A stretch of 64,000 bases of DNA from assembly GCA_902556065.1 (NCBI GenBank), contig CACDUV010000001.1:94534-158533 (forward strand), written 5' to 3'. Position 1 is the stretch's first letter, and each line of letters opens with the position of its first letter. The notes under the pieces were generated by a model. The model did no database searches. It saw nothing but the letters and a program-made list of their open reading frames with translations, and was not told where the DNA came from. The translations under genes and the position numbers were made by a program. Shown here piece by piece: positions 1,544-64,000 of this stretch. The stretch is from an uncultured Pelagibacteraceae bacterium (GTDB lineage: Bacteria; Pseudomonadota; Alphaproteobacteria; Pelagibacterales; Pelagibacteraceae).

Positions 1544-2869
1544 GTGTCTAAAAATTTATTTCAAATTGCTAAGCAAAAAAAAATTAAATATTTTTTAATC
1601 AGTTTTGTAGATTTATTTGGTGTATTAAGATCAAAATTAGTACCTGCTCATGCAATAAAAGAAATGCAAAATGCAGGAGCTGGTTTTGCTGGATTTGCAG
1701 CATGGTTAGATATGACACCTGCTGACTCAGACATGTTTGGAATTCCCGACCCAGATAGTTTAATTCAACTTCCATGGAATAAAGAAGTTGGATGGTTAGC
1801 ATCTGATCTATGGATGAATGGCAAACCAGTAGATGCATCGCCCAGAGTGATGCTAAAAAATCAGATAAAAAAACTAAAAAAACAGAATTTAACAATGAAA
1901 TCAGGTGTTGAGTGTGAATATTTTTTAATTTCACCTGATGGCAATTCAATTGCAGATCCAAGGGATACTCAGTCTAAACCTTGTTATGACCAATCTGCAT
2001 TAATGAGAAGGTATGATTTAATTAAGGAAATTTGTGACTGTATGATTGAAATGGGATGGGGCCCTTATCAAAACGATCACGAGGATGCTAACGGTCAATT
2101 TGAAATGAATTGGGATTATTCAGATTGCCTAAAAACTGCAGATAGACATACTTTTTTTAAGTTTATGGTAAAAACAATTGCTGAAAAGCACGGATTAAGA
2201 GCAACATTTATGCCTAAACCATTTGGAAATTTAACCGGCAATGGTTGTCATGCTCACGTATCAGTTTGGCAAGGTAGTAAAAATAAATTCTTAGATAATA
2301 AAGATAAACTTGGTTTAAGTAAAATGGCCTATAATTTTTTAGGCGGAGTAATTAATAATGCTTCATCTTTATCTGCGTTTTTTAATCCAACAATCAATAG
2401 TTACAGAAGAATAAATGCACCACCTACAAAATCTGGAGCATCATGGTCACCAAGTAGTATTTCCTATACAGGTAATAATCGAACACACATGATAAGAATC
2501 CCTGATCCTGGAAGATTTGAATTAAGATTAATGGATGGTTCTGCTAATCCTTACTTATTGCAAGCAAGTGTTTTAGCAGCTGGTCTATATGGTTTAAAAA
2601 ATAAAGTTGATCCAGGTAAACCTTTGGATTGCAATATGTATGAAGACCACGCTAAATATCCAGACTTACCTAAGCTACCTGATGAACTTTCACAATCATT
2701 AAATTTATTAAAAAATAATAAAGATATGAATGATGCTTTTGGCAAAGATGTTATTGAAAGTTATATAAAATTAAGAAGTTCAGAAATGAATGAATTCGAA
2801 TCAAAAGATAGTTTTGATAAAACAAAAGATGTTACAAAGTGGGAAAAAGATAATACTTTAGATTGTTAG
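1544..2869 (+). CDS. Glutamine synthetase family protein (type III/GlnT-like or gamma-glutamylmethylamide synthetase-like)
   Basis: GS catalytic motifs (GVECEYFLI, NGCHAHVSVW, RIPDPGRFELRLMDGSANPYL); GTG start. Confidence 0.85.
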   Translation: MSKNLFQIAKQKKIKYFLISFVDLFGVLRSKLVPAHAIKEMQNAGAGFAGFAAWLDMTPADSDMFGIPDPDSLIQLPWNKEVGWLASDLWMNGKPVDASPRVMLKNQIKKLKKQNLTMKSGVECEYFLISPDGNSIADPRDTQSKPCYDQSALMRRYDLIKEICDCMIEMGWGPYQNDHEDANGQFEMNWDYSDCLKTADRHTFFKFMVKTIAEKHGLRATFMPKPFGNLTGNGCHAHVSVWQGSKNKFLDNKDKLGLSKMAYNFLGGVINNASSLSAFFNPTINSYRRINAPPTKSGASWSPSSISYTGNNRTHMIRIPDPGRFELRLMDGSANPYLLQASVLAAGLYGLKNKVDPGKPLDCNMYEDHAKYPDLPKLPDELSQSLNLLKNNKDMNDAFGKDVIESYIKLRSSEMNEFESKDSFDKTKDVTKWEKDNTLDC

Positions 2870-9279: not shown

Positions 9280-11949
9280 TCAAATCATGTTCCTTAGCAC
9301 ATATTGGAGAATTCCTCCATTTTTATAATATTCCAACTCATTTTTAGTATCTATTCTAGACAAAGTCTTCACTTTTTTTATTTCTCCAGTGATATATTTA
9401 ATCTCTATAATAACTTCATCAGAGGGATTTATACCTTTTTCAATATCAACTACACTTATTAGTTCTGAACCAATTAAATTTAAGGTTTTTCTATTTTCTC
9501 CATCTTTAAATTGAAGTGGTAAAATCCCCATCCCAATTAAGTTTGATCTATGGATTCTTTCAAAGCTTTCAGCAATGACCACTTTTACTCCAAGAAGTTT
9601 AGTTCCTTTAGCTGCCCAATCTCGTGAAGAGCCAGTACCATATTCTTTACCACCTATGACTACTAAATCAGTTCCTCTTTTTTTATATTCAACAACTGCA
9701 TCATAAACTGGCATTACTTTTTCTTCAGGATATAACTTTGTAAATCCACCTTCAGTTCCTGGAACCATCTCATTTCTTATTCTAATATTTGCAAAAGTTC
9801 CTCTCATCATAACTTCATGATTCCCTCTTCTTGAGCCATAAGAATTATAATCTTTAGGTAAAATTTGGTGTTCCATAAAATATTCTCCAGTTGGACTATC
9901 TTTTTGTATGCTGCCAGCAGGTGAAATATGATCTGTTGTTATCATGTCGCCTAATATTAATAACGGTCTTGCATCTTTAATTTCTTTAAATCCTTCTGGT
10001 TCATTAGATAAACCTTCAAAGAATGGTGGTTTTTTTACATAAGTTGAACCCTCATCCCATTTATAAATACTGCTTTTTTCAGTTTTGATTTGTTGCCATT
10101 GAGTAGGACCATCTGAGACATTTGAGTATCTTTGAATAAACATATCAGCATTCAAAGATTGTTTAAGAGTATCTTCTATCTCTTGATTAGAAGGCCAAAT
10201 ATCTTTTAAAAAAATATCTTTTCCATCTTTACTTTTTCCTAAAGGATCTTTGTATAAATCGAACTCCATGTGTCCTGCTATTGCGTAAGCAACCACTAAT
10301 GGTGGAGAAGCTAAATAGTTTGCTTTGATATGAGGAGAAATTCTTCCTTCAAAATTTCTATTTCCAGATAGTACAGAAACAGCATGAATATTTTCTTTTT
10401 GAATTGCCTCTACTATATTTTCAGGCAATGGTCCTGAGTTTCCAATACAGGTAGTGCATCCATATCCAACTAAATTAAACCCTAATTGATCTAAATAAGT
10501 ATTCAAACCAGCTTTTTCTAAATAGTCAGTCACAACTTGAGATCCGGGTGCTAATGATGTTTTGACCCATGGTTTAACTTCTAGTCCGTACTCAACAGCT
10601 TTTTTTGCAAGCAAACCTGCTCCAATTAAAACATTTGGATTTGAAGTATTTGTACATGAAGTTATTGCAGCAATTAAAATTGAACCATCTTGAATTTCGT
10701 AATCAGTGTTAGAGATTTTAGAGATTGATTTTTTATCATTATTGGTTGCTTCAGATAAAACTTTTTTAAATGAAGTTGGCGCATCGGTTAACAAAACCTT
10801 GTCTTGAGGTCTTTTTGGACCAGATATAGTTGGTACAACTGTGGACATGTCTAAAGAAATTACATCAGTAAATTCTAAATCATTACTTGCCCATAAACCT
10901 TGTTCCTTCGCATATTTCTCAACTATCTCAACTGTATGCTGATCTCTTCCTGAAAATTTTAAATATTTTAAAGTTTCATCATCTATTGGAAAAAAACCAC
11001 AAGTTGCGCCATATTCTGGAGCCATATTTGCGATAGTTGCTCTATCTGCAAGAGTTAGGTTTTTTAATCCATCTCCATAAAATTCTACAAATTTTCCAAC
11101 AACACCTTTATCTCTTAGCATTTTTACCACTGTTAAAACAAGATCTGTTGCTGTTGTACCTTCAGGCATTTTATTTTTAACCTCGAAACCTACCACTTCA
11201 GGTATCAACATCGAAATCGGCTGACCTAACATTCCTGCCTCCGCTTCAATACCACCTACACCCCAGCCCAAAACGGAAAGTCCGTTAACCATCGTTGTAT
11301 GACTATCTGTACCAACAAGAGTATCTGGAAATATATATTTCTCTCCTTTAAATTCTTCAGACCAAACTACTTTGGATAAGTATTCTAAATTTACCTGATG
11401 ACATATTCCCGTTCCTGGCGGGACAATTCTAAAATTATCAAAAGCTTGTTGTCCCCATTTTAAAAATGAATATCTCTCGCCATTTCTATTGAATTCTATA
11501 TCTACATTTTTTTCAAATGAATCTGCTTTTGCAGATTGATCAACTTGCACAGAGTGATCAATTACAAGATCAACTGCTGATAATGGATTGATTGTATTTG
11601 GATCTTTATTTTTTTCTTTAACAGCTTCTCTCATGGCAGCTAGATCTGCAACTGCAGGGATTCCTGTATAATCTTGAAGTAAAACTCTCGCAGGTCTATA
11701 TGCGATTTCGGTTTTAGATTTTTTTGTTTCTAACCAATTTTTAATTGCTTCTATTTGAGACTTTGTAACACTTAAATCATCTTCATATCTCAATAAGTTT
11801 TCTAATAAAACTTTTAAAGATTTAGGAAGGTTACCAATTCCCTCAAGTCCATTTTTTTCTGCTTCGTTTAATGAATAATAATTATACTCTTTGTTATTGA
11901 TTGTGATTTTTTTTAGTGAATTGTAAGAATTTTTGTTTCCTGGTGTCAT
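9280..11949 (-). CDS. acnA: Aconitate hydratase
   Basis: 889 aa; DLVIDHSVQVD, VGTDSHTTMVNGL, AAITSCTNTSNP, GYGCTTCIGNSGPL, GKEYGTGSSRDWAAKG. Confidence 0.97.
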   Translation of the reverse strand: MTPGNKNSYNSLKKITINNKEYNYYSLNEAEKNGLEGIGNLPKSLKVLLENLLRYEDDLSVTKSQIEAIKNWLETKKSKTEIAYRPARVLLQDYTGIPAVADLAAMREAVKEKNKDPNTINPLSAVDLVIDHSVQVDQSAKADSFEKNVDIEFNRNGERYSFLKWGQQAFDNFRIVPPGTGICHQVNLEYLSKVVWSEEFKGEKYIFPDTLVGTDSHTTMVNGLSVLGWGVGGIEAEAGMLGQPISMLIPEVVGFEVKNKMPEGTTATDLVLTVVKMLRDKGVVGKFVEFYGDGLKNLTLADRATIANMAPEYGATCGFFPIDDETLKYLKFSGRDQHTVEIVEKYAKEQGLWASNDLEFTDVISLDMSTVVPTISGPKRPQDKVLLTDAPTSFKKVLSEATNNDKKSISKISNTDYEIQDGSILIAAITSCTNTSNPNVLIGAGLLAKKAVEYGLEVKPWVKTSLAPGSQVVTDYLEKAGLNTYLDQLGFNLVGYGCTTCIGNSGPLPENIVEAIQKENIHAVSVLSGNRNFEGRISPHIKANYLASPPLVVAYAIAGHMEFDLYKDPLGKSKDGKDIFLKDIWPSNQEIEDTLKQSLNADMFIQRYSNVSDGPTQWQQIKTEKSSIYKWDEGSTYVKKPPFFEGLSNEPEGFKEIKDARPLLILGDMITTDHISPAGSIQKDSPTGEYFMEHQILPKDYNSYGSRRGNHEVMMRGTFANIRIRNEMVPGTEGGFTKLYPEEKVMPVYDAVVEYKKRGTDLVVIGGKEYGTGSSRDWAAKGTKLLGVKVVIAESFERIHRSNLIGMGILPLQFKDGENRKTLNLIGSELISVVDIEKGINPSDEVIIEIKYITGEIKKVKTLSRIDTKNELEYYKNGGILQYVLRNMI

Positions 11950-43079: not shown

Positions 43080-44021
43080 TTATCTTAATTTTTTTTCGTA
43101 TTTTTTTCTAAGCTTTTGAAGCTCAACTAAATATTCATCTCTAATATTTGAGATTTTGGTAACTGATTTTCCTTTAGATTGTTTTTTCGTTCCTTTAACT
43201 AATCTATCAATTAACTTGTTTGATAATTTTGGAGCCTTAAGTTTTGTCCATGGAAGTTTTAAAGCTGGTCCAAATTGTTCTAACATGTGTCTCATACCAG
43301 CTTTTCCTCCAGCTAAATGAAAAGTTAGAAAGGTTCCCATTAATGACCATCTTAAACCTGGTCCATCTTCAATTGCTCTATCTAAATCCTCTGTAGTTGC
43401 GTGACCTTCGTTAATTATGTGTAGCCCTTCTCTCCACAAAGCTTCCTGCAATCTATCCGATAAATAACCTGGCAACTCATGTTTAACCATTATTGGATTC
43501 ATAGAAATTGATTTATAAAATTTTTTAGCCAAATTTAAATTTTTTTTTGAAGTTTTCTTACCTGGAACAATTTCTACGGCAGGCAATAAATAAACAGGAT
43601 TAAATGGATGTCCAATTATTCCCCTCTCTGGATTTTTACATTTAGAATAAATTCTTGTTGGTAGCAATCCTGATGAACTTGATGAAATAATTGCACTAGG
43701 TTTAGAATATTTTCCAATAGTGCTCATCAACTTAGTTTTTAAAGTATAATTTTCAGTTGCACATTCTTGAATAAAATCTGCATCCCTTAAAGCTTCATCA
43801 ATAGAAGTAAAATATTTAAAATTTTTAAAATTAATTGTTTTTTTATTGAAAAGTTTTTTTACATAGGGCCAAGTTCTTTTAATCTCAGTAATTAAATTTT
43901 TTTTTAATTTAATATCTTTGTCATAAGCATGAACAATTTTATTATGAGCCAAACATCTGATGATCCAGCCTGTACCAATTACTCCAGTTCCAATAACTGC
44001 TATTTTTTTAATTTGAGACAT
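43080..44021 (-). CDS. L-carnitine dehydrogenase-like (3-hydroxyacyl-CoA DH fold)
   Basis: AVIGTGVIGTGWIIRCLAHN, SSSSGLLPTRI, GHPFNPVYLLPAVEIVPG, FHLAGGKAGMRHMLEQFGPALKLPWTKL. Confidence 0.8.
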   Translation of the reverse strand: MSQIKKIAVIGTGVIGTGWIIRCLAHNKIVHAYDKDIKLKKNLITEIKRTWPYVKKLFNKKTINFKNFKYFTSIDEALRDADFIQECATENYTLKTKLMSTIGKYSKPSAIISSSSSGLLPTRIYSKCKNPERGIIGHPFNPVYLLPAVEIVPGKKTSKKNLNLAKKFYKSISMNPIMVKHELPGYLSDRLQEALWREGLHIINEGHATTEDLDRAIEDGPGLRWSLMGTFLTFHLAGGKAGMRHMLEQFGPALKLPWTKLKAPKLSNKLIDRLVKGTKKQSKGKSVTKISNIRDEYLVELQKLRKKYEKKLR

Positions 44022-44908
44022 TACTTGTGTTTAACAAGTTTTAACTTTTCTCTAGTTTCTGATGGTGTCATTGGGGCATAGCCAAGTTCATCTATAATTC
44101 TTACAGCTTTTTCTACCAATTGAGCGTTAGTAGCTAATTTACCTTTAGATAAATATAAATTATCCTCTAATCCAACTCTTGGGTTCCCTCCCATCAAAAC
44201 GGTTTGAGCAACAAATGGCATTTCATTTTTTGAAATTGCAAAACCTGACCAAATCCCTTCTTTTGGCATTATATCTTTCATGGCTTGCATAGCTAATGTT
44301 GTAGCAGGTGCTCCCCATGGAATTCCTAAACACATTTGAAACATTGGTGGATCACTTAATAACCCTTCTTTATATAATTGCGCACCAAACCACATGTTTC
44401 CTAAATCAAAAGCTTCTATTTCTGGTTTAACTTTTATCTCTTTTAATTTCTTTGCTGCTTTTCTTAAATCATTTGGTGTATTAACTGTAATTACTGAGCT
44501 ATCACCAAAATTTAAAGTACCCGCATCTAGAGTGCAAATTTCTGGAAGAAATTGTTCAGCGTTTGCAATTCTTTCCATTACATTTGCCATATCAGTCATA
44601 GGACCAAAATCTAAAGGATTTTTACCTTGTCCAATATCAAGATCTCCCCCCATACCTGTTGTTAAATTTAATATTACATCTGTGTCACTTGAACGAACTC
44701 TATCTACAACCTCTTTATATAACTCTAATCTTCTACTTGGTGTTCCGTCTTCTTCCCTCACATGTATATGAGCAATAGCAGCTCCTGCTTTTGCAGCTTC
44801 AATTGATGCTTTAGCAATTTGTTCTGGTGTTTTTGGTAAATCTGGATGCTTGCTTGCGGTATCTCCTGACCCCGTAACAGCACATGATATGAATACCTTG
44901 TTGTTCAT
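44021..44908 (-). CDS. BKACE family enzyme, candidate 3-dehydrocarnitine cleavage enzyme (CdhC-like)
   Basis: ISCAVTGSGDTASKHPDLPKTPEQIA, AIAHIHVREEDGTPSRRLELYKEVVDRVR, NLTTGMGGD. Confidence 0.83.
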   Translation of the reverse strand: MNNKVFISCAVTGSGDTASKHPDLPKTPEQIAKASIEAAKAGAAIAHIHVREEDGTPSRRLELYKEVVDRVRSSDTDVILNLTTGMGGDLDIGQGKNPLDFGPMTDMANVMERIANAEQFLPEICTLDAGTLNFGDSSVITVNTPNDLRKAAKKLKEIKVKPEIEAFDLGNMWFGAQLYKEGLLSDPPMFQMCLGIPWGAPATTLAMQAMKDIMPKEGIWSGFAISKNEMPFVAQTVLMGGNPRVGLEDNLYLSKGKLATNAQLVEKAVRIIDELGYAPMTPSETREKLKLVKHK

Positions 44909-44955
44909 TTTAAGTAAGATTTATACTATTATAAAAAGGACGAGGGAATAAAAAA

Positions 44956-45423
44956 ATGTCTTTTCACATAACAAACCAAACAATCAAAAAAGAATGGACT
45001 GATTATAATAATCATATGAACATGGCTTACTATGTCTTAGTTTTTGATCAGACTTGGGAGATCATTCTAGAAAAGTTCAAGATGGGTGAAAAATCAGCAA
45101 AGGATACCCAAAGAAGTACCATGGTTGTTGAAACTCGCACTACATATGATGGTGAAGTTAAAGAGGGAGATGAAGTAGAAATTGTTTTAACCTTCTTTGA
45201 TCATGATAAAAAGAGATTACATTTTAAGATGGAAATGATTGAAAAATCATCAAAAAAATTATCAGCAACTATTGAAATGTTAGCTCTTTATATTGATCTT
45301 AGTAAAAGAAAAGTTACAGAATTTGAAGATGAAAAAATTAAAATTATGGATAACTTCATAAATGAAAATAAAAATGAATTTAATTCCGATAATTTATCCA
45401 TTATTGGAAAACTTAAAAAATGA
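44956..45423 (+). CDS. Hotdog thioesterase, candidate betainyl-CoA thioesterase (CdhB-like)
   Basis: DYNNHMNMAYYVLVFDQTWE hotdog motif; divergent to CdhA/CdhC-like pair. Confidence 0.75.
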   Translation: MSFHITNQTIKKEWTDYNNHMNMAYYVLVFDQTWEIILEKFKMGEKSAKDTQRSTMVVETRTTYDGEVKEGDEVEIVLTFFDHDKKRLHFKMEMIEKSSKKLSATIEMLALYIDLSKRKVTEFEDEKIKIMDNFINENKNEFNSDNLSIIGKLKK

Positions 45424-48369: not shown

Positions 48370-49395
48370 TTATTTGTTACGATAAACCGAGATTAAACAA
48401 ATAATTTCAAACATTATAGAAGCTGCAACCATTGCTGTAATTTGATTTGGACTATCTTTTGTTGGCATTAAACAAGCAACATCTCCTCCAATTACATTTT
48501 TTCCTTTTAAACACTGAATCAGCTTACGTGCTTCATCCATATTAAATCCTTTATACGCAGGCTCTATATTTGCTACTCCTGGAGCTACTGCTGGATCTAA
48601 ACAATCTAAATCGAAAGTAACATAAATTGGATTGTCACCTAGTCTATCTAAAATCATTTTCACACATTTTTCATGACCCCATTCTCTATATTCATCCATT
48701 GTAATTACTTGATAACCAATATCGTAACTTGCTTGTAACCAATCTAATGTTCTTGGATTTCCTCTTATACCTATCTGAGTACTTGTATGTGGATCAACAT
48801 TTCCTTGTTTAACTAAATAAGAAGCCCAATGTGCTGCTGATTTTTTTGCGCCTAGAAAATGATCTAATTTTTCAAAACAATCTGTATGGGCATCAAAATG
48901 TAGAAATGTTATTTTTTTTCCTTTAGTTAATTTTGAATTCTTTTTTGCTAAACTTTGAACAATTCCTCCAGTTACCGAATGATCTCCACCAATTGAAACA
49001 ACTGGTTTTTCAGCTTGTTCTATATGATCGTAAAAAGCCGAAATTCTTTCTATACATTTTTCATTATCATTAGCTTCTGGAAAAGGAACATCTCCCAAAT
49101 CGTGAATTTTATTTTCTTTCCAAGGATCAATTTTGTAATCAAAGTGAGATCGTCTCAACATTGCAGAAATATTTCTAACTGCTCTTGGACCTAAATGCTG
49201 ATCTCTTTCGGTAGTTCCATTCCCAGTACTATGAGGAACGCCTACTAACGCTATGTCACAATTTTTCGGGTCTGGATCATTTTTACATCTAAATAAAGTT
49301 GGTATACCCCACCAATAAAGGGTTTCCATCATTATTTTATCTTCTTCAGAAATCATGAATAGAATATTGCATAAATTTAATAAATTTAAAAACAC
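48370..49395 (-). CDS. Divergent ureohydrolase (agmatinase/arginase family)
   Basis: SIGGDHSV, HFDAHTDCFE, TFDLDCLDPAVAPGVANIEP; true start may be 49356 or further in. Confidence 0.85.
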   Translation of the reverse strand: MFLNLLNLCNILFMISEEDKIMMETLYWWGIPTLFRCKNDPDPKNCDIALVGVPHSTGNGTTERDQHLGPRAVRNISAMLRRSHFDYKIDPWKENKIHDLGDVPFPEANDNEKCIERISAFYDHIEQAEKPVVSIGGDHSVTGGIVQSLAKKNSKLTKGKKITFLHFDAHTDCFEKLDHFLGAKKSAAHWASYLVKQGNVDPHTSTQIGIRGNPRTLDWLQASYDIGYQVITMDEYREWGHEKCVKMILDRLGDNPIYVTFDLDCLDPAVAPGVANIEPAYKGFNMDEARKLIQCLKGKNVIGGDVACLMPTKDSPNQITAMVAASIMFEIICLISVYRNK

Positions 49396-52342: not shown

Positions 52343-53497
52343 TTGATGTCTAAAGTATTTGATTTATTTATAATTGGTGGTGGTATTAACGGCGCTGGTA
52401 TTGCAAGAGATGCTTCTGGAAGAGGTTTGTCGGTGTGTTTGGCAGATAAAGGAGAAATTGGAGGTGCAACTTCTTCTTGGTCTACAAAATTAATTCATGG
52501 TGGACTTCGTTATTTAGAAAATTATGAATTTAAGTTAGTAAGAGAGTCACTTAAAGAAAGAGAAATTGTTTACAAAATTGCAAAACATATCTCAAGACCA
52601 ATCCCATTTATCATTCCACATACCGATAAAATTAGACCAGCCTGGTTGATTAAATTTGGTTTGTTTTTGTATGACAATTTAGGAGGAAAAACCAATATTC
52701 CAAAATCAAAAACATTTGATCTTAATAAAAAATTTCCAAATATTCTAAAAGAAAAATACAAAACTGGTTTTCAATATTTTGATATTCAAATTGATGATAA
52801 AAAATTGACAAAACTAAATGCTCGAGATGCAAAAAGAAACAAAGCTAAAATTTTAGAATACAACAAAGTTAAAAAGGCAGAAATTATTAACAATGAGTGG
52901 GTCATAAGTCTTCAAAATGGAAAAAAAATAAAATCAAAAGTTTTAATCAATGCATCTGGCCCATGGATAAATGAGACTTTAAATAAAAATATAAAAATAA
53001 AATCTAAAAATAAAATTAGATTAGTTAAAGGAAGTCACATCATTACTAAGAAACTATATAAAGAAGATGTTGCATTTACTTTTCAAAATACAGATAAAAG
53101 AATAATATTTGTAATTCCTTACAAAAAATATTTTTCATTAATTGGAACAACTGAAGTGGAAGTCAAATCCCCAGAAAATAATGGAATATCAAATCAAGAA
53201 ATTCAATATTTAATTAAATCAGTAAATAATTATTTAAAAAAACAAATTAGCAAAAAAGATATAATGGATACTTATTCAGGAATAAGGCCTCTAATAGAGG
53301 ATTTTAAAGAGGCCTCAAAAGTTACTAGGGATTATGTTTTTGATTTACACATTGTGAAAAAATTACCTCTTTTAAATATTTATGGAGGAAAACTTACTAC
53401 ATATAGAAAGTTATCTGAAAAAGTCCTCATAGACCTTAAAAAGTTTTTACCCAAAACCAAAAAAGGCCCATGGACAGATAAAAAGAGACTTTTTTAG
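52343..53497 (+). CDS. glpD: Glycerol-3-phosphate dehydrogenase-like FAD protein lacking C-terminal domain
   Basis: FIIGGGINGAGIARDASGRGLSVCLADKGEIGGATSSWSTKLIHGGLRYLE; GGKLTTYRKLSEKVL near the C-terminus. Confidence 0.85.
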   Translation: MMSKVFDLFIIGGGINGAGIARDASGRGLSVCLADKGEIGGATSSWSTKLIHGGLRYLENYEFKLVRESLKEREIVYKIAKHISRPIPFIIPHTDKIRPAWLIKFGLFLYDNLGGKTNIPKSKTFDLNKKFPNILKEKYKTGFQYFDIQIDDKKLTKLNARDAKRNKAKILEYNKVKKAEIINNEWVISLQNGKKIKSKVLINASGPWINETLNKNIKIKSKNKIRLVKGSHIITKKLYKEDVAFTFQNTDKRIIFVIPYKKYFSLIGTTEVEVKSPENNGISNQEIQYLIKSVNNYLKKQISKKDIMDTYSGIRPLIEDFKEASKVTRDYVFDLHIVKKLPLLNIYGGKLTTYRKLSEKVLIDLKKFLPKTKKGPWTDKKRLF

Positions 53498-53499
53498 AT

Positions 53500-53620
53500 T
53501 TCCACACCTATAAAAAAGTGATATCGTTATTCAATAAAGCGATACATAACTCGTCGTTAAAATCAAAGATTTACGAAAGTGGGATCGGTCGTCTTTAAAT
53601 TAACTTTTAAAGGAGGCTTT
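53500..53620 (+). promoter_or_regulatory. Possible structured 5' leader of the LLM operon
   Basis: Several complementary arms including two alternative pairings around the SD sequence. Confidence 0.35.
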
Positions 53621-54790
53621 ATGAAATTTGGTTATTTTTGCAATACCACTAACTGGACACACAAACCATATCATCAATTATTAGACGAAACCAAAGAAAT
53701 CACAGAATATTGTGATCAAAATAATTGGAACTCTATTTGGTTTACTGAACATCACTTTAATCACGAAGGAATGGAGTCATGCACAAACCCAATAATGATG
53801 GGAGTAGATGCAGCTGCAAGAACGAAAAATATAAGAATAGGACAAGCTGCAAATGTAATTACATTTCATAATCCTATAAGACTAGCAGAAGATATTGCTA
53901 CACTAGATCAGCTTTCAAAAGGAAGAGTTGAGGTGGGTGTTGCAAGAGGAATTTATGGAAGAGAAGCAATTAATCTAAACAAAGAGGCTGATCTTAAAGA
54001 TCAGGCAAAAAATTTCAGATTGTTTGCTGAAACATTAGAAGTGCTAAAAAAAGCATGGAGTGAAAAGTTTTTTAGTCATCAAGGTGAGTTTTATACTTAT
54101 CCTTCTCCAAATTATGTTTGGCAGCATGATATGAGTCCGCCAAGTGAAGAATTTATGAATATTGATGATAACACTATGAAAAAGATTAGTGTTCTTCCAC
54201 AACCTTTTCAAAAACCTTATCCTCCAATTCATCAAGTAGTAGATGGAATTAGATCAATCGAGTGGGCAGCTGAGAACAATATAAATATCATAATGTGGAT
54301 ACCAACAGTAAAAGCTTTAAAAGCAAAATTTGAAGCTTATAAAAATAAAAGATCTGAGGTGACCAAAAAAAATATTCCTTTGGGTGAGGGTGTATCTCTT
54401 GTTAGAGATATGTTTGTAGCTGACACAATGGAAGAGGCTAAAGAAAAAGCTGGTGAACATATGGTAAATTATATGCGTTGGGTTTGTCATTGGCGTGGTC
54501 TAGGAAACCATATGGATCCAGGTGAAGAACTACCAGAAACCAAAGGAAAGCTTGATTTATTAGATTATGAATTTTTGCATAAAAGAAATATGTTATTTGG
54601 AACACCAGAGTATGTAATTGATAAAATTCATGAATTAAAATCTGAGTTAAATCTTCAAAACTTGCAAGTTTGGTCAAACTTTCCCGGTGTAAAACATAAA
54701 GATTGTATGAAAAGCATTAAACTTTTTACAGAAAAAGTTATGCCTCATTTCCAAGATGATTTAGGAACTGAAGTTAAAAAAGTTTCGTGA
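53621..54790 (+). CDS. LLM-class flavin-dependent oxidoreductase (luciferase-like)
   Basis: SIWFTEHHFNHEG, NIRIGQAANVITFHNPIRLAEDIATLDQLSKGRVEVGVARG; ATG preceded by AAAGGAGG (listed GTG 53579 less likely). Confidence 0.9.
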   Translation: MKFGYFCNTTNWTHKPYHQLLDETKEITEYCDQNNWNSIWFTEHHFNHEGMESCTNPIMMGVDAAARTKNIRIGQAANVITFHNPIRLAEDIATLDQLSKGRVEVGVARGIYGREAINLNKEADLKDQAKNFRLFAETLEVLKKAWSEKFFSHQGEFYTYPSPNYVWQHDMSPPSEEFMNIDDNTMKKISVLPQPFQKPYPPIHQVVDGIRSIEWAAENNINIIMWIPTVKALKAKFEAYKNKRSEVTKKNIPLGEGVSLVRDMFVADTMEEAKEKAGEHMVNYMRWVCHWRGLGNHMDPGEELPETKGKLDLLDYEFLHKRNMLFGTPEYVIDKIHELKSELNLQNLQVWSNFPGVKHKDCMKSIKLFTEKVMPHFQDDLGTEVKKVS

Positions 54791-56490
54791 TCAAATCCAA
54801 AAAAAATATAAGCGGTGGTCAAGCTGCCGTTAGAGCTCTTAAGAGAGAAAAAACTAAACATGTTTTTGGTTTAATTGGTTCTGCAACAATGGAAATGTTT
54901 GATGCTCTGTATCATGAAAAAAGTATAAAATTTATTGGAGTTAGAGATGAGCGAACTGGAACACATATGGCAGATGGTTATGCTAGAGCATCTAATAAAC
55001 ATGGTGTAATTATTGCAGGCCAGAATGGACCAGGTGCCACAAATTTAGTAACAGGTGTAGCACAAGCAAAAGCTGCCTTCTCTCCTGTTGTTGCAATTGC
55101 AGGTTCTTACTCAACAAAAGATAAAATGGAAGATGCTTTTCAAGGGTTAGATCAACAATCCTTATTTGCTCCAATTACAAAAAAGACTTGGACTGTGAAA
55201 AATTCGAAAATTGTTCCTAAAATAATTGGAGATGCATTTAATTTATCAATGAAACCTAGAAGAGGACCAGTTTGCATTAATCTTCCAAGAAATATATTAG
55301 CTGAGAAAAACACTTATAATATCAATATTAATAAACCTTCGTTTTCAAATGAAAGTAATCTTAAAGGGAACAAGGAAAAAATTAAAATAGCAGCAAGCCT
55401 ATTATTAAAATCAAAACAACCAACAATAATAGTTGGGGCTGGAATTAAGTATAACTCAAAATATAAAGAAGTAATTAAATTGGCAGAATTGCTAAATATT
55501 CCAACTGTTACAGCTGCAGGTCATGGTGATGCTATACCATTTAATCATAAATTAAATGCTGGACAGATGGGTCCAAGAGGAAACCCTGTTGCATCAAGAC
55601 TAGTGAAAGAAGCGGATGTTATTTTAGCTATCGGAACTCGATTAGGATTTAATTCAACTTTTTATTCCTATGAAAATATAAATAAAAAAGCAAAAATAAT
55701 TCAAATTGAATTAGAAAAAAAAATGGTTGGAAAGTATTTTCCAGTATCAATAGGAATTCATGCAGATGCTACAATTGCTACTATTCAATTATTTAAAGAA
55801 ATAAAAAAACAAAAGATTAAATCAAATGTAAAAAGATGGACTGATTTATATTTAAAGGAAAGAAAAGAATTTTTATATAATAGAGATAATAAAAATTTAG
55901 GAAAAAACTTTCCCATTCAGCCAAAAGGGTTGTTTAAGCAACTAAGAAGGGTTTTACCTAAAAACTCAGCGATCACTTTGGATGCTGGAACGTTGTGTTT
56001 ACAAGCTACAGATGCTTTAGAATACTATGATCCTCCTTCTCTATTTACACCTTTGGATTTTGGCCTAGTTGGTTTCTCATTTGCTTGTGGACTTGGAGTA
56101 AAAGTTGCAAAACCAAAAAAAACAGTTGTAAGTTTGATGGGTGATGGTGGTTTTGGAATGACAATTTCTGAATTAAGTACAGCTGTTGAATATGGAATAA
56201 ATACTACAACAATAGTAATGAATAATAAAAGTTGGGGGGCAGAGAAAGCTTATCAAAAAGATTTTTTTGGTAAAAGATATTTGGGTGCTGATATAACTAG
56301 TCCATCTTTTGATAAAGTTGCTGAATTATATGGAGCAAAAGGATTTAAAGTTGAAAAAGTTTCTGAGATAAATGAAGCAGTTAGAGCTGCAATCAAAAGT
56401 AAAAAACCTGCTGTGATAGATGTTGATGTAGATCCGAAAGCATTATACAGTTTTAGAAGAGATAGTTTTCAACATAGAATTAAAAAATGA
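54787..56490 (+). CDS. ThDP-dependent enzyme, acetolactate-synthase-like superfamily with Xsc-like motifs
   Basis: GLIGSATMEMFD, GQNGPGATNLVTG, VSLMGDGGFGMTISELSTAVEYGI, NNKSWGAEKAYQKDFFGKRYLG; GTG start. Confidence 0.87.
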   Translation: MIKSKKNISGGQAAVRALKREKTKHVFGLIGSATMEMFDALYHEKSIKFIGVRDERTGTHMADGYARASNKHGVIIAGQNGPGATNLVTGVAQAKAAFSPVVAIAGSYSTKDKMEDAFQGLDQQSLFAPITKKTWTVKNSKIVPKIIGDAFNLSMKPRRGPVCINLPRNILAEKNTYNININKPSFSNESNLKGNKEKIKIAASLLLKSKQPTIIVGAGIKYNSKYKEVIKLAELLNIPTVTAAGHGDAIPFNHKLNAGQMGPRGNPVASRLVKEADVILAIGTRLGFNSTFYSYENINKKAKIIQIELEKKMVGKYFPVSIGIHADATIATIQLFKEIKKQKIKSNVKRWTDLYLKERKEFLYNRDNKNLGKNFPIQPKGLFKQLRRVLPKNSAITLDAGTLCLQATDALEYYDPPSLFTPLDFGLVGFSFACGLGVKVAKPKKTVVSLMGDGGFGMTISELSTAVEYGINTTTIVMNNKSWGAEKAYQKDFFGKRYLGADITSPSFDKVAELYGAKGFKVEKVSEINEAVRAAIKSKKPAVIDVDVDPKALYSFRRDSFQHRIKK

Positions 56491-57074
56491 AATTAGAACT
56501 AAGAAAATTTACTAAATTTGTAGATAAAACTTTTATTGAGGGAGGCAAAGAAGCAAAAGAACCTGTATTATTGGTATCTGTTGCTGCAGTTTTTAAAAAT
56601 CCATGGCATGGTCAAGGATTTGTTGAGGACTTAAGACCAACTATTTTAGATCTGGCTCCTAAGTTAGGTGATTTACTTGTTCCAGAATTAATAAAAGAAA
56701 TAGGATCTCCAGAAAAAATACTAGCATATGGTAAAGCAGGAGTAGTTGGATTAGATGGAGAAATAGAGCATGCATCAGCTTTTATTCACACTTTGAGATT
56801 TGGAAATAAATTTAGAGACGCTGTGGGAGGCACATCTTATTTAAGTTTTACAAATACAAGGGGACCAGCTGGATCAAAAATTTCTATTCCCATGATGCAT
56901 AAAACTGACTCTGGGTTAAGACCTTATTATCTAACACATGAATTTACTATACATGATGCACCATTTAATGATGAGGTGGTGATTGCGATAGGTGGAGCAT
57001 CTAGTGGAAGAGCACATGCTAGAACAGGTGATCGATATCAAGATATGAAAGAAATGGGAATTGAACCCAAATAA
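56487..57074 (+). CDS. DUF1185 / amino acid synthesis family protein
   Basis: AAVFKNPWHGQGFVEDL, AYGKAGVVGLDGEIEHASAFIHT, GRAHARTGDRYQDM. Confidence 0.8.
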   Translation: MKLELRKFTKFVDKTFIEGGKEAKEPVLLVSVAAVFKNPWHGQGFVEDLRPTILDLAPKLGDLLVPELIKEIGSPEKILAYGKAGVVGLDGEIEHASAFIHTLRFGNKFRDAVGGTSYLSFTNTRGPAGSKISIPMMHKTDSGLRPYYLTHEFTIHDAPFNDEVVIAIGGASSGRAHARTGDRYQDMKEMGIEPK

Positions 57075-57080
57075 ATCTTG

Positions 57081-57863
57081 ATGACTACTGGAACTACTGA
57101 TTCTGGAACTTTTTACTCATACAAAAAAAAAGACCAAGAAATTCCAATTGTATTTGTTCATGGTGTTGGTTTAACCCATGAGATTTGGAAACCTCAATTA
57201 GATTTCTTTAATAATTATAGTACTCTTGCATACGATATTCTTGGTCATGGAAAATCATCTTTAGATAAAGAAATAATTTCATTTGATGATTTTTCGGATC
57301 AACTAATTGATTTAATTAATCACCTTAATATAAAAAAAATTCATTTGGTTGGTTTTTCAATAGGTTCTTTGATTGCGAGGAACTTTGCTATCAATCACAG
57401 TTCACATTTACAATCACTAACTCTGTTATGCTCAATATATAAAAGAACTGAAGAGCAACAAAAAATTGTAAATCAAAGATTTGAACAAGCAAAAAAAGAT
57501 CTTAAATTATCAAGACAAGCTCTTAAAAGATGGTTTAGTGACGAATATATTGAAAAGCATCCAAATATTTATGATAAAATTAGCTCAATTTTAGCAGCTA
57601 ACAATATGGAGCATTTTCTGAAAGTTTATGAGCTATTTGTAAAACATCAAAATGATGAAGATTTTAATAAAATTCAAAATCACACTTTAGTTATGACTGG
57701 AGAGCATGACATTGGCTCCACAGTTAAAATGTCTCAAGAATTAAATGCTCTAATACCAAAAAGCCAATTAAAGATCATCAAAGATGGAAAACATCTTTGT
57801 GGTATTGAGTGTGCGGATGATGTAAATTCAAGTCTCAATAGTTTTATCAAAGACAATGAGTAA
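57081..57863 (+). CDS. Alpha/beta hydrolase
   Basis: PIVFVHGVGLTHEIWKPQ, HLVGFSIGSLIARNFA, GKHLCGIE; ATG at 57081 (listed TTG at 57078). Confidence 0.87.
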   Translation: MTTGTTDSGTFYSYKKKDQEIPIVFVHGVGLTHEIWKPQLDFFNNYSTLAYDILGHGKSSLDKEIISFDDFSDQLIDLINHLNIKKIHLVGFSIGSLIARNFAINHSSHLQSLTLLCSIYKRTEEQQKIVNQRFEQAKKDLKLSRQALKRWFSDEYIEKHPNIYDKISSILAANNMEHFLKVYELFVKHQNDEDFNKIQNHTLVMTGEHDIGSTVKMSQELNALIPKSQLKIIKDGKHLCGIECADDVNSSLNSFIKDNE

Positions 57864-59337
57864 ACTTAAAAAATATCAAATGTATATTGATGGTCAGTGG
57901 GTTGATGCTGAAAACAACAAAACATTTGAAACTTTAAACCCAGAAAATAACGAACCTTGGGCAATTGTTCCTGAAGCAAGTGCAAAAGATACTGATAAAG
58001 CTGTTCAAGCTGCACAAAAAGCCTTTGAAGGTGAATGGCCTAAATTACTGCCAAGAGAAAGAGCAAAATTTTTAAGAGCAATTGGAGATCAGTTAAGAGA
58101 AAATGCAGAAATGCTTGGAGAAATAGAAACCATAGACACTGGAAAATTATTTAGAGAAACAAAAAAACAAGCAATCTATATAGCAGAGTACTATGATTAT
58201 TATGCAGGTTTAGCAGACAAAGTTGAAGGTACTGTACTGCCAATTGATAAACCAAACGTTCAAGCAATAACTACTAGAATTCCTATTGGTGTTATAGCTG
58301 CAATAATACCATGGAATTCGCAAATGTTTTTAACTGCAACTAAGTTGGCGCCAGCACTTGCAATGGGAAATACTGTTGTAATTAAATCATCAGAATTAGC
58401 GCCTGCAGTATTATTTGAATTTGCAAAATTAATTGAAAAAACTGGAATACCAAAAGGAGTTGTAAATATAATTACTGGTTTTGGTGATCTATGTGGAAAA
58501 ACTTTAACAACACATGATATGGTTGAAAAGATAGCGTTTACTGGTGGACCAGAAACTGCAAGACATATAATTAAAAATTCAGCAGAAAACCTCTCTGAAG
58601 TTAGTTTGGAACTTGGAGGAAAAAGTCCTGTAGCTGTTTTTGATGATGCTGAACAAGAGAATGCAATTAATGGAATTACAGCAGGAATTTTTGGAGCAAG
58701 TGGACAAAGTTGTATAGCTGGCTCACGGCTTTATATTCAAAAAGGAATCTATAATGAATTTTTAGATAAACTTTCTAAACGTGCATCAAAAATTAAAATA
58801 GGAGCACCAATGGATCCTGAAACAGAAATGGGTCCTTTAAGTAATTTTAAACAACTAGAGACTATAGAAAAAAACATTAAAGAAACTGTTGATCAAGGAG
58901 GAAAAATTAAATGCGGTGGTGAAAGACATTCTTTTTCAAATAAAGGTTATTATTTTCCACCGACTATAATTGAATGTGATAATCATAATTTACCTGTTGC
59001 TGAAAATGAATTATTTGGTCCTGTACTCTCTGTTATGAAATTTGATACTGAAGAAGAAGTTATATCAAAAATGAATGATAATCAGTATGGATTGTCTTCT
59101 GGGGTTTATACAAGTAATTTATCTAGGGGCATGAGAGTATCTAAGGCAATAAGAGCTGGAATAACTTTTGTGAATACTTATCGATTAATCTCACCATCAG
59201 CTCCTTTTGGTGGAATTAAAGATAGTGGATACGGTAAAGAAGCTGGAATAGACTCTATTAAAGATTATACAAGGGTAAAAACAACTTGGTTCTACACATC
59301 TGACGAGCCGTCTCTAGATCCATTCTCAATCAGATAA
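57856..59337 (+). CDS. Aldehyde dehydrogenase family protein
   Basis: IIPWNSQMF, FTGGPETARH, SLELGGKSPVAVF, GQSCIAGSR, ELFGPVLSV. Confidence 0.93.
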   Translation: MSKLKKYQMYIDGQWVDAENNKTFETLNPENNEPWAIVPEASAKDTDKAVQAAQKAFEGEWPKLLPRERAKFLRAIGDQLRENAEMLGEIETIDTGKLFRETKKQAIYIAEYYDYYAGLADKVEGTVLPIDKPNVQAITTRIPIGVIAAIIPWNSQMFLTATKLAPALAMGNTVVIKSSELAPAVLFEFAKLIEKTGIPKGVVNIITGFGDLCGKTLTTHDMVEKIAFTGGPETARHIIKNSAENLSEVSLELGGKSPVAVFDDAEQENAINGITAGIFGASGQSCIAGSRLYIQKGIYNEFLDKLSKRASKIKIGAPMDPETEMGPLSNFKQLETIEKNIKETVDQGGKIKCGGERHSFSNKGYYFPPTIIECDNHNLPVAENELFGPVLSVMKFDTEEEVISKMNDNQYGLSSGVYTSNLSRGMRVSKAIRAGITFVNTYRLISPSAPFGGIKDSGYGKEAGIDSIKDYTRVKTTWFYTSDEPSLDPFSIR

Positions 59338-59446
59338 TTGTCAGCGTCAATTAACTGTCTAAAATAGGATAATTTTGTCATTGAATATTGATTGTATTCA
59401 TACTTAAATTGGTTTTTATAAATTGTTAACAATAAAGAGGAAGATA

Positions 59447-60628
59447 ATGAGAAAACTATTTATTGCTGCATTTATGTTTGTTTCTATTTTTGGAACAAAG
59501 GTAATGGCAGATATTAAAATGGGGATCATCTTAGGATTCACTGGTCCTATTGAATCTCTAACACCAGCTATGGCTGCATCTGCAGAGCTTGCATTTAAAG
59601 AAGCTTCTGATTCAGGTTCGCTATTAGGTGGAAAAAAAATTGAGCCAGTAAGAGCAGACTCAACTTGTGTTGACTCAGCAGCAGCAACAGCAGCAGCTGA
59701 AGGTTTAATTTCAGGTGATGTGGCTGCGATTATGGGAGCAGACTGTTCAGGTGTAACTGGTGCTATTGCAACTAACGTTGCTGTACCAAATGGTGTAGTA
59801 ATGATTTCACCTTCAGCTACTTCTCCAGGATTAACAACTCTAGATGACAAAGGGTATTTCTTTAGAACTGCTCCATCAGATGCTAGAGGTGGCCAAATTT
59901 TAGCTGATATAACTAAAGATAGAAAAGTAAAAAGTGTTGCAATCACTTATACTAACAATGACTATGGTAAAGGTTTAGCTGATGTTTATAAAGCAGCAGT
60001 TGAGGCTCATGGTATTAAAGTTACAACTGTAACTGCTCACGAAGATGGAAAAGCAGATTACTCATCTGAAGTAGCAACTCTTGCTTCTGCTGGTGGTGAT
60101 GCTGTAGCAGTTATTGGTTATCTTGACCAAGGAGGAAAAGGAATTATTCAAGCTTCTTTAGACTCTGGTGCCTTTGATAGATTTATTTTATCAGATGGTA
60201 TGATTGGTCAATCTTTAGTTGATGCATTCGGAAAAGATTTAAGTAAATCATTTGGATCATTACCAGGTTCTACTGGTAAAGGTGCAGGTATATTTGCTGA
60301 TGTTGCAAAAGCTGGAGGTGTAGAAGCTTCTGGTCCTTACACAGGTGAATCTTACGATGCAGCTGCTTTGATCGTTCTTGCAATGCAAGCAGGTAACTCT
60401 GCTGACAGAGCATCAATTGCAAAAAATGTAATGGATGTTGCTAACGCTCCTGGAACTAAAATTTATCCAGGTGAACTTAAGAAAGGTTTAGATTTATTAG
60501 CAAAAGGTAAAAAGATAAATTACGAAGGTGCTACTGGAGTAACTTTTACTAGTGTTGGTGAAGCTGAAGGTTCTTTCTTAGAACAAGAAATTAAAGGCGG
60601 AAAATTCAAAACTAAAAAACAAAGATAA
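59447..60628 (+). CDS. Branched-chain amino acid-type ABC substrate-binding protein (LivJ/K-like)
   Basis: Signal peptide from MRKLFIAAF; MGIILGFTGPIESLTPAMAASAELAFKEA; listed start 59423 is upstream of SD aaagaggaa. Confidence 0.9.
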   Translation: MRKLFIAAFMFVSIFGTKVMADIKMGIILGFTGPIESLTPAMAASAELAFKEASDSGSLLGGKKIEPVRADSTCVDSAAATAAAEGLISGDVAAIMGADCSGVTGAIATNVAVPNGVVMISPSATSPGLTTLDDKGYFFRTAPSDARGGQILADITKDRKVKSVAITYTNNDYGKGLADVYKAAVEAHGIKVTTVTAHEDGKADYSSEVATLASAGGDAVAVIGYLDQGGKGIIQASLDSGAFDRFILSDGMIGQSLVDAFGKDLSKSFGSLPGSTGKGAGIFADVAKAGGVEASGPYTGESYDAAALIVLAMQAGNSADRASIAKNVMDVANAPGTKIYPGELKKGLDLLAKGKKINYEGATGVTFTSVGEAEGSFLEQEIKGGKFKTKKQR

Positions 60629-61906: not shown

Positions 61907-63277
61907 TTACTTTATTTCTATTTTTTCAGGAAGTATACCTTTAGGTCTATACCTCATTATAAACAACAATCCTAATCCCATCAGTAAAAATCTGAAATAA
62001 GGAACGCTTTCAATTAAATGAGCTTTAAGTGCATTTGTTTCAGGAATTCCCGCAGTGAAAAAGTTTATTAAGAATAATGATATTGGTGCAGCTTCAATCC
62101 ATAAAAACCAAACAACAAATCCTCCTAAAATTGCTCCAAAATTATTTCCACTTCCTCCAACAATTACCATTACCCAAATCAAAAAAGTATATCTCATGGG
62201 TCTATAACTTCCTGGAGTAAATAAACCATCTTGAGTAACCAACATTGCACCAGCTATTCCAACAATTGCTGAGCCTAAAATAAAAATTAGTAAATGTTGT
62301 TTAACAACATTTTTACCCATTGCATTTGCAGCTTCCTCATTATCTCTTATTGCTCTCATCATTCTTCCCCAAGGTGAATAAAGAGCTTTTTGAGTTAAAA
62401 TTAGAAGAATAATTACTACTACTAAGAATAATCCTGAATAACACAGTTTTACAAATACTGATGAACCTTCAATAACAAGTTGGTTTAAAGCAGCTTGACG
62501 ATCAGCTAAATTCTCGATTACACTTAATTTTCCTGAATTAAACTTTTCAACTAATTTAATAAACCAATCAGTAGTTTGAAGATCTACTTCATAAGGTGCA
62601 GGTCTTTTTAATCCAATAACGTTTTTGACACCTCTTGTGAGCCAATCTTCGTGTTTAATAATTGCAATAACAATTTCAGAAATAAGAAGAGTAGCAATAG
62701 CTAAATAGTCTGCTCTAAGACCGAGCGCAACTTTTCCAACTATAAAAGCTAAACCACCAGCAAAAAGAGCGCCTACTATCCAAGAAAATACAATTGGTAA
62801 TCCAAATCCTCCTAGGAAACCGGTTTTAGCAGGATCAACTGCTTCAATAGCTTCTATGCCGGGCTCTGCAGAAAATCTAATAAGCAAAATACCTGAAATT
62901 ATTATTGCAGCTATGCTGTATGTTCTTATTTTTGATTTTTCAAATCTTTTTAAAATAAACCTTATAACTAATACCATTACTACTATCAGCCATAACGACA
63001 TTAAAATATCAAAACCTCCTGCCCTCCAAGCTTCTTGAACAGGATCGACAGATATCAATACTGCGGCTAAACCACCTAAAGCTGTATAACCCATAATTCC
63101 AAAATTAATTAAACCAGCATATCCCCATTGAATATTTGCACCCATCGTCATAACTGCAGAAATCAAACAAAGATTAAATATTGATAAGGCTATGTTCCAT
63201 GACTGAAATATACCAACCAACAGAATGAGCACCATCATGATGCTATATGCTGCAATTACATTTAAATTCTTTCTCAC
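61907..63277 (-). CDS. livM: Branched-chain amino acid ABC transporter permease (LivM-like)
   Basis: GYAGLINFGIMGYTALGG, GLRADYLAIATLLISEIV, SPWGRMMRAIRDNEEAANAMGKNV. Confidence 0.9.
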   Translation of the reverse strand: MRKNLNVIAAYSIMMVLILLVGIFQSWNIALSIFNLCLISAVMTMGANIQWGYAGLINFGIMGYTALGGLAAVLISVDPVQEAWRAGGFDILMSLWLIVVMVLVIRFILKRFEKSKIRTYSIAAIIISGILLIRFSAEPGIEAIEAVDPAKTGFLGGFGLPIVFSWIVGALFAGGLAFIVGKVALGLRADYLAIATLLISEIVIAIIKHEDWLTRGVKNVIGLKRPAPYEVDLQTTDWFIKLVEKFNSGKLSVIENLADRQAALNQLVIEGSSVFVKLCYSGLFLVVVIILLILTQKALYSPWGRMMRAIRDNEEAANAMGKNVVKQHLLIFILGSAIVGIAGAMLVTQDGLFTPGSYRPMRYTFLIWVMVIVGGSGNNFGAILGGFVVWFLWIEAAPISLFLINFFTAGIPETNALKAHLIESVPYFRFLLMGLGLLFIMRYRPKGILPEKIEIK

Positions 63278-64000
63278 AATACTTTTCCTTTAAATATTCC
63301 TGAAGGTCTATAAAGCAAGACAATCACCAAAATTGAAAATGAAACTGCAAATTTATAATCTGTCGAAAGTAATTGAACTAAACCTTCTGGCTCCATACTT
63401 TCTGGTAAAACATATATAAAAAATTTCTTATATGCGTATGTTAATAAAATTTCTGAAAAAGCAATGACATAGCCACCTAAAAATGCACCAAAAGGATTAC
63501 CAATTCCACCTACAATTGCTGCAGCAAAAATTGGAAGCATATTATTAAAATAAGTGAAAGGTTTAAAACTTTTATCTAAACCATACAAAGCACCACCTAT
63601 TGTAGCTAAAATACCAGCAATAACCCAAGTAACTAAAACTATTTTTTTTGGATCAATACCTGATAACAGAGCAAGATCTTCGTTGTCCGAATAGGCTTTC
63701 ATGCTTTTTCCTGTTTTAGTTTTATTTAAAAACCAGAATAGTAAAGAGACTAAAATTATTGTAACAAAAATAGTTATTACCTGAGTAGATTTAAGAGCAA
63801 GCCCTTCATTTAAGCCTGTCATTTCTTTAAATTCTCTAGCCTTGATAATGAATTTTTCTCCATCAAAAAATCTTCTGTCACCAGGTCCAATAATAATTCT
63901 TACCACTGCTTGAGTTACAAACATCACACCAATACTGACCATGGCAAACTGAACTGGTGGACTCTTTTGAGTTCTATAATACTTAAAAACAAATTTATCT
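63274..64000 (-). CDS. livH: Branched-chain amino acid ABC transporter permease (LivH-like), 5' end outside window
   Basis: Frame stays open to 64000 on the minus strand (DKFVFKYYRTQKSPPVQFAMVSIG...); MKAYSDNEDLALLSGIDPKKI, GGIGNPFGAFLGGYVI. Confidence 0.9.
   Translation of the reverse strand, partial: DKFVFKYYRTQKSPPVQFAMVSIGVMFVTQAVVRIIIGPGDRRFFDGEKFIIKAREFKEMTGLNEGLALKSTQVITIFVTIILVSLLFWFLNKTKTGKSMKAYSDNEDLALLSGIDPKKIVLVTWVIAGILATIGGALYGLDKSFKPFTYFNNMLPIFAAAIVGGIGNPFGAFLGGYVIAFSEILLTYAYKKFFIYVLPESMEPEGLVQLLSTDYKFAVSFSILVIVLLYRPSGIFKGKVL

Follow-up and report, generated by a model that had tools for sequence, protein, structure and literature searches.

A conserved five-gene operon in Pelagibacteraceae, probably a variant of the trigonelline (tgn)-type ring-opening operons

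An uncultured Pelagibacteraceae bacterium (assembly GCA_902556065.1) carries, in the 64,000-nucleotide stretch analysed here (contig CACDUV010000001.1, positions 94,534 to 158,533; hereafter the window), a five-gene operon which spans 53621-59337 of the window, entirely on the + strand. It encodes a luciferase-like monooxygenase (LLM), a thiamine diphosphate (ThDP)-dependent enzyme of the sulfoacetaldehyde acetyltransferase (Xsc) branch, a DUF1185 protein, an alpha/beta hydrolase (ABH) and an aldehyde dehydrogenase (ALDH). The five genes form a real, conserved operon, and on balance we regard it as probably a variant of the tgn-type operons for the opening of N-heterocyclic rings, whose substrate would most likely be an N-methylated pyridine-type betaine of seawater. 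The genes are as follows:

53621..54790, + strand: LLM-class (bacterial-luciferase-like) flavin monooxygenase, 389 aa (Pfam PF00296)
54787..56490, + strand: ThDP-dependent enzyme of the Xsc branch, 567 aa (Pfam TPP_enzyme N/M/C)
56487..57074, + strand: DUF1185/PF06684 (AA_synth) protein, TgnF-type, 195 aa (PF06684, 213 bits)
57081..57863, + strand: ABH, PcaD/esterase-like (Pfam Abhydrolase_1)
57856..59337, + strand: ALDH of the TgnC-type subfamily, 493 aa (Pfam Aldedh)

The LLM gene starts at the ATG at 53621, which is preceded by a strong ribosome-binding site, AAAGGAGG; its longest open reading frame (ORF) begins at a GTG at 53579, and the gene start differs from 53500, where the interval of the initial annotation began. 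The LLM gene (end 54790) overlaps the ThDP gene (start 54787) by 4 nucleotides (nt), the ThDP gene (end 56490) overlaps the DUF1185 gene (start 56487) by 4 nt, and the hydrolase gene (end 57863) overlaps the ALDH gene (start 57856) by 8 nt, while the DUF1185 gene ends at 57074 and the hydrolase gene starts at the ATG at 57081, with a TTG at 57078 as a possible alternative. ORFs and Pfam families thus bear out the initial annotation, which had described five co-directional genes with these overlaps and had named a conserved gene neighbourhood as the check on them; the operon does recur, both within and beyond the order Pelagibacterales. Chance grouping is excluded by the conservation of the gene set within the order and by the presence of the same family combination in other classes and phyla. 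In a promoter scan, promoter-like sites were no more numerous than in shuffles. The source genome (0.996 Mb, 43 contigs) is 74% complete; its small size, AT-richness and gene content would fit SAR11.

The tgn operons share four of the five families with the window, and so the view that no described pathway is comparable is not supported; what is new relative to tgn is confined to the ThDP component and the subfamily of the LLM. TgnF of the trigonelline operon of Acinetobacter baylyi is a homologue of the DUF1185 family (PMC7913881). The annotated tgn operon of Acinetobacter sp. PK01 (NZ_CP094644) runs DUF1185-ABH-reductase-oxygenase (LLM)-tgnC (ALDH), with tgnA given as the reductase, tgnB as the oxygenase and tgnC as (Z)-2-((N-methylformamido)methylene)-5-hydroxybutyrolactone dehydrogenase, and a succinate-semialdehyde dehydrogenase is encoded close to these genes. 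DUF1185, ABH, flavin reductase, LLM and ALDH also stand together in annotated plasmid operons of Chimaeribacter, Ensifer, Acinetobacter venetianus, Aquabacterium and Marivivens. With tgnC of PK01 the window ALDH shares 52% identity, and in an ALDH tree it falls into one group with tgnC-type ALDHs and with those of the ThDP-type modules described below (support 98/96), from which the window's two further ALDHs are excluded. The window DUF1185 protein is 53-57% identical to its counterparts in the tgn-type operons of Acinetobacter, Chimaeribacter and Ensifer. Common to the window and the tgn operons is the combination of an LLM oxygenase, a TgnC-type ALDH, an alpha/beta hydrolase and a TgnF-type DUF1185 protein in one operon. 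The window operon differs in its LLM subfamily, its extra Xsc-branch ThDP enzyme and its gene order, as well as in having neither a flavin reductase nor a succinate-semialdehyde dehydrogenase gene at the locus; the importer of tgn operons is a permease or of the polyamine type, whereas the candidate in the window is LivK-type.

The LLM type of the window is found in other tgn-like operons of Alphaproteobacteria, at 45-53% identity, and one alphaproteobacterium has a complete flavin reductase-LLM-DUF1185-hydrolase-ALDH set with this LLM type (53% identity). One alphaproteobacterium has a pair of window-subfamily LLM genes within 9 kb (L072:2211-3470 and 9929-11164), one of which adjoins DUF1185, hydrolase and ALDH genes. 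Across the hydrolases of tgn-type operons and ThDP-type modules, the window hydrolase is 23-33% identical.

Within the order, for which 297 genomes were sampled, the LLM orthologue is present in 100 and the ThDP orthologue in 59, of which 58 are also LLM-positive (Fisher p ~5e-33, phylogeny uncorrected). The ThDP orthologue is missing from 42 of the 100 LLM-positive genomes, and so, in the order, the operon cannot be regarded as a single inseparable pathway: the ThDP step is tied to the operon yet dispensable. Accordingly two layouts occur among 20 fully read loci, LLM-ThDP-DUF1185-ABH-ALDH and LLM-DUF1185-ABH-ALDH, and within the genus LivK usually comes next after either. When 20 genomes were checked whole, the 15 without the ThDP orthologue had only distant ThDP paralogues (~30% identity). 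In two assemblies (L169, L170) the ThDP gene is frameshifted, possibly by assembly error, with the other operon genes intact. Some relatives have a 209-aa S-adenosylmethionine-methyltransferase-like protein encoded between the ThDP and DUF1185 genes (L034:10561-11190, L035:10585-11214).

A scan of named genomes with the ThDP alignment gave 80 loci outside the order, in Rhodobacterales, SAR116, Hyphomicrobiales, Granulosicoccaceae and other Gammaproteobacteria, as well as in bins labelled Chloroflexi and Acidimicrobiales; 53 of these had enough flank for counts of gene content. All five families lie in one direction, in the order ALDH-LLM-DUF1185-ABH-ThDP, at 28 of the 53, with the hydrolase present in 47 and the LLM in 42. 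This unnamed ThDP-type module (Rhodobacterales, SAR116, Granulosicoccaceae and others) has all the window families, with ThDP orthologues ~58-66% and ALDHs 50-57% identical to those of the window. It differs in gene order, in its LLM, which belongs to a tgn-like subfamily, and in usually having a LysR regulator in divergent orientation and in some cases a flavin reductase. The module LLM is only 22-28% identical to that of the window, and its genes are arranged differently, which suggests that this set of families was assembled on more than one occasion or, alternatively, was rearranged and acquired a different oxygenase. Frequent companions of the modules are a divergent LysR gene, a flavin reductase, CMD- and ABM-like small proteins and OpuA/ProV-type betaine transporters. 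N-methylglutamate-synthase-type genes (GATase, GXGXG) together with glnT/gmaS occur at five of the 53 loci, and adjoin the module in Roseovarius-type genomes and in Aquabacterium. In Parasedimentitalea and Aminobacter (L174, L175), genes for LLM, ALDH, hydrolase and DUF1185 are grouped with those for enoyl-CoA hydratase, 3-hydroxyacyl-CoA dehydrogenase, RidA and 3-keto-5-aminohexanoate cleavage protein.

The ThDP enzyme had been called Xsc-like rather than a biosynthetic acetolactate synthase (ALS), in part because no ALS small subunit follows its gene. Both points hold: the DUF1185 gene comes next, and the enzyme is nearer Xsc (31% identity) than ALS (28%), though far under the Xsc cut-offs. 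It keeps the active-site Glu, the GDGG...NN motif and the WGAEK and FRRD motifs common to Xsc, and so belongs to the same ThDP branch, but it scores 392 of the 676 bits needed for TIGR03457 and 406 of 620 for PRK07525. For these reasons it was rejected as Xsc proper; branched-chain amino-acid biosynthesis was rejected too, as there is no ALS small subunit and the score lies under the ALS cut-off (TIGR00118, 391 of 538 bits). A further difference is that a phosphate acetyltransferase gene lies directly behind both Xsc genes examined, whereas none was seen among the ORFs and Pfam matches of the window operon and its adjoining genes, and the operon is without sulfonate genes. Candidate reactions are the decarboxylation of a 2-oxo acid, should the ring be opened at a different position, or chemistry like that of Xsc in which a different group leaves. 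The nearest annotated paralogue, from Ruegeria (40% identity), closes an operon (L088:354-9674, on a megaplasmid of R. pomeroyi, and L183:356-9665) with an MttB-like methyltransferase, a class III aminotransferase and two flavin adenine dinucleotide (FAD)-dependent oxidoreductases, which looks like another uncharacterised route for an N-methyl compound.

The model of the LLM is of modest confidence (pLDDT 73). In Foldseek it matched RslO1 and bacterial luciferase best and diketocamphane monooxygenase further down the list, which would place it only in the luciferase/Baeyer-Villiger group. The closest solved structure to the ALDH is gamma-hydroxymuconic semialdehyde dehydrogenase, and the nearest NCBIfam family to the hydrolase, under cut-off, is 3-oxoadipate enol-lactonase; both fit ring-cleavage chemistry. 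The solved DUF1185 protein SPO0826 of R. pomeroyi is a distant match only, and its neighbourhood was set aside.

A ring-opening route is proposed because of the substrate named for tgnC and the role of TgnA/TgnB in opening the ring during trigonelline degradation (PMC8269262). The LLM, with reduced flavin mononucleotide (FMN) and O2, would cleave a ring C-C bond beside the nitrogen, yielding an N-formyl enamine which bears an aldehyde (the role of TgnB), and the TgnC-type ALDH would oxidise this aldehyde to the carboxylate. The ABH, acting on the N-formyl enamine or on a lactone intermediate, may then hydrolyse off the N-formyl/amine part (the role of TgnD), so that formate, methylamine and a C4-C5 product for the tricarboxylic acid cycle would be released. 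The DUF1185 protein would aid one of the steps in the manner of TgnF, and the Xsc-branch ThDP enzyme, where present, may act on an aldehyde or 2-oxo-acid intermediate. Beyond the tgnC substrate and the role of TgnA/TgnB, the chemistry is that generally known for the trigonelline pathway. The gene families support the initial annotation's suggestion that oxygenation, aldehyde oxidation and hydrolysis make up one linear catabolic route.

Opening of a betaine ring is supported by the methylamine-assimilation genes which adjoin related modules, and the OpuA/ProV betaine-type transporters beside these modules point the same way. Within the order, a gene of the gamma-glutamylmethylamide synthetase (GMAS) family occurs in 86% of LLM-positive and 52% of LLM-negative genomes (p 2e-9, phylogeny uncorrected), which agrees with the release of methylamine, and the GMAS-family enzyme is a possible sink for it. 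Several observations weigh against such a route. Identity between the window LLM and tgn-type LLMs reaches only 25-30%, against 67-81% within the tgn type, and the window hydrolase is only 23-25% identical to tgn-type hydrolases. The operon has no flavin reductase, and a search with PF01613, the only reductase family covered, gave no match in 20 genus members, the window's own 74% complete genome included, although the same model recovered the flavin reductase in 13 of 14 controls. Nor does the operon have a succinate-semialdehyde dehydrogenase, which was sought at the locus only, the sole ALDH there being TgnC-type. The ThDP step has no place in the tgn scheme, gmaS/mgs genes accompany only the five of 53 ThDP loci, and the co-occurrence p values carry no correction for phylogeny.

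As to the substrate, a special case of betaine ring opening is that the operon represents, in a new host, the homarine (N-methylpicolinate) pathway published in 2026 by Ferrer-Gonzalez et al. (Nat Microbiol), which we regard as possible, though less likely than not. Homarine, an N-methylpyridine betaine plentiful in the sea (PMC8269262), suits the marine setting, and the 2026 work, as quoted in PMC13390433, gives a conserved homarine pathway with an N-methylglutamate dehydrogenase (Mgd). The role of Mgd, as quoted there, agrees with the methylamine and N-methylglutamate genes beside ThDP-type modules, and this link to N-methylglutamate metabolism is, with the substrate class, the likeness between the two systems. 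A simple chemical scheme for homarine, however, would leave the ThDP enzyme without a role, and the trigonelline machinery has been argued not to act on homarine (PMC8269262). That the window operon may coincide with the 2026 pathway is the main uncertainty on novelty; literature searches on TgnF, and on trigonelline or homarine with SAR11, returned nothing useful besides PMC8269262. The other special case, which appears unlikely, is the trigonelline pathway proper with its LLM replaced, in which the ThDP or housekeeping enzymes would take the C4 product instead of succinate-semialdehyde dehydrogenase. The best annotated relatives are indeed tgn operons, and those read among the 42 LLM-positive genomes without ThDP carry only the four tgn families. 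Nevertheless, the operon is not taken for tgn itself, because its LLM, which is expected to set the substrate, comes from a different subfamily, the PF01613 search of the 20 genus genomes yielded no flavin reductase, and the ThDP step is both unexplained and dispensable.

Two further explanations place the chemistry elsewhere. If the ThDP enzyme were the core, forming an acyl phosphate in the manner of Xsc on an alpha-substituted aldehyde route fed by the other four genes, its WGAEK and FRRD motifs, its greater nearness to Xsc than to ALS and the position of its nearest annotated paralogue at the end of the Ruegeria operon would be accounted for; yet the phosphate acetyltransferase that stands beside both Xsc genes examined is not seen beside the window gene, and the ThDP gene is gone from 42 of 100 LLM-positive genomes and frameshifted in two, which makes this improbable. 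Little probability also attaches to a substrate without a nitrogen ring, for instance on a lactone or Baeyer-Villiger type ketone route, to which the modelled LLM fold, with RslO1 and diketocamphane monooxygenase among its neighbours, and the hydrolase, nearest the enol-lactonase PcaD, might point, since in the annotated neighbourhoods examined the ALDH and the close DUF1185 relatives sit in tgn-type operons, and methylamine and betaine genes adjoin the relatives.

If the operon does open N-methylated betaines, about one third of the sampled Pelagibacterales genomes would carry genes for the ring opening of N-heterocyclic betaines, for example homarine or trigonelline, which would amount to an uncounted oceanic sink for dissolved organic nitrogen as well as a methylamine source. 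Testable context would also be gained for two poorly understood proteins, DUF1185 and the Xsc-branch ThDP enzyme. More speculatively, and with some doubt on our part, the operon may stand for an undescribed pathway of N-methylated-betaine ring opening which extends across several phyla and is common in small-genome ocean bacteria, in which the ThDP enzyme would convert the ring-opened aldehyde or 2-oxo acid by a new reaction, and two LLM subfamilies would have been recruited into the same five-enzyme set.

Several genes of the window outside the operon may be connected with it:

59423..60628, + strand: LivK-type substrate-binding protein (Pfam Peripla_BP_6), a candidate importer component by association only
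61907-63277 and 63274-63942, - strand: LivM and LivH permease genes (ORFs), linked by association with LivK only
48370..49395, - strand: agmatinase-like ureohydrolase, an optional accessory gene
1544..2869, + strand: type III glutamine synthetase/GMAS family protein (TIGR03105, above cut-off), distant and outside the operon

In most relatives within the genus, LivK follows the operon and the LivM/LivH genes are divergently oriented. The agmatinase-like gene is statistically tied to the operon, occurring in 17 of the 297 genomes of the order, 16 of them LLM-positive; homologues with 61-66% identity adjoin ThDP-type modules in other taxa, and the closest solved structure to its product is 3-guanidinopropionase. 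Just upstream of the operon, at 52343-53497, lies a gene for a GlpD-like glycerol-3-phosphate dehydrogenase of 384 aa, which matches positions 3-392 of a 508-position model, the C-terminal part being missing. At 43080-45423, two - strand genes, 3-hydroxyacyl-CoA-dehydrogenase-like and 3-keto-acid-cleavage-like, stand with a thioesterase-like + strand gene, and together they possibly belong to a carnitine-type route, judging from their sequences.

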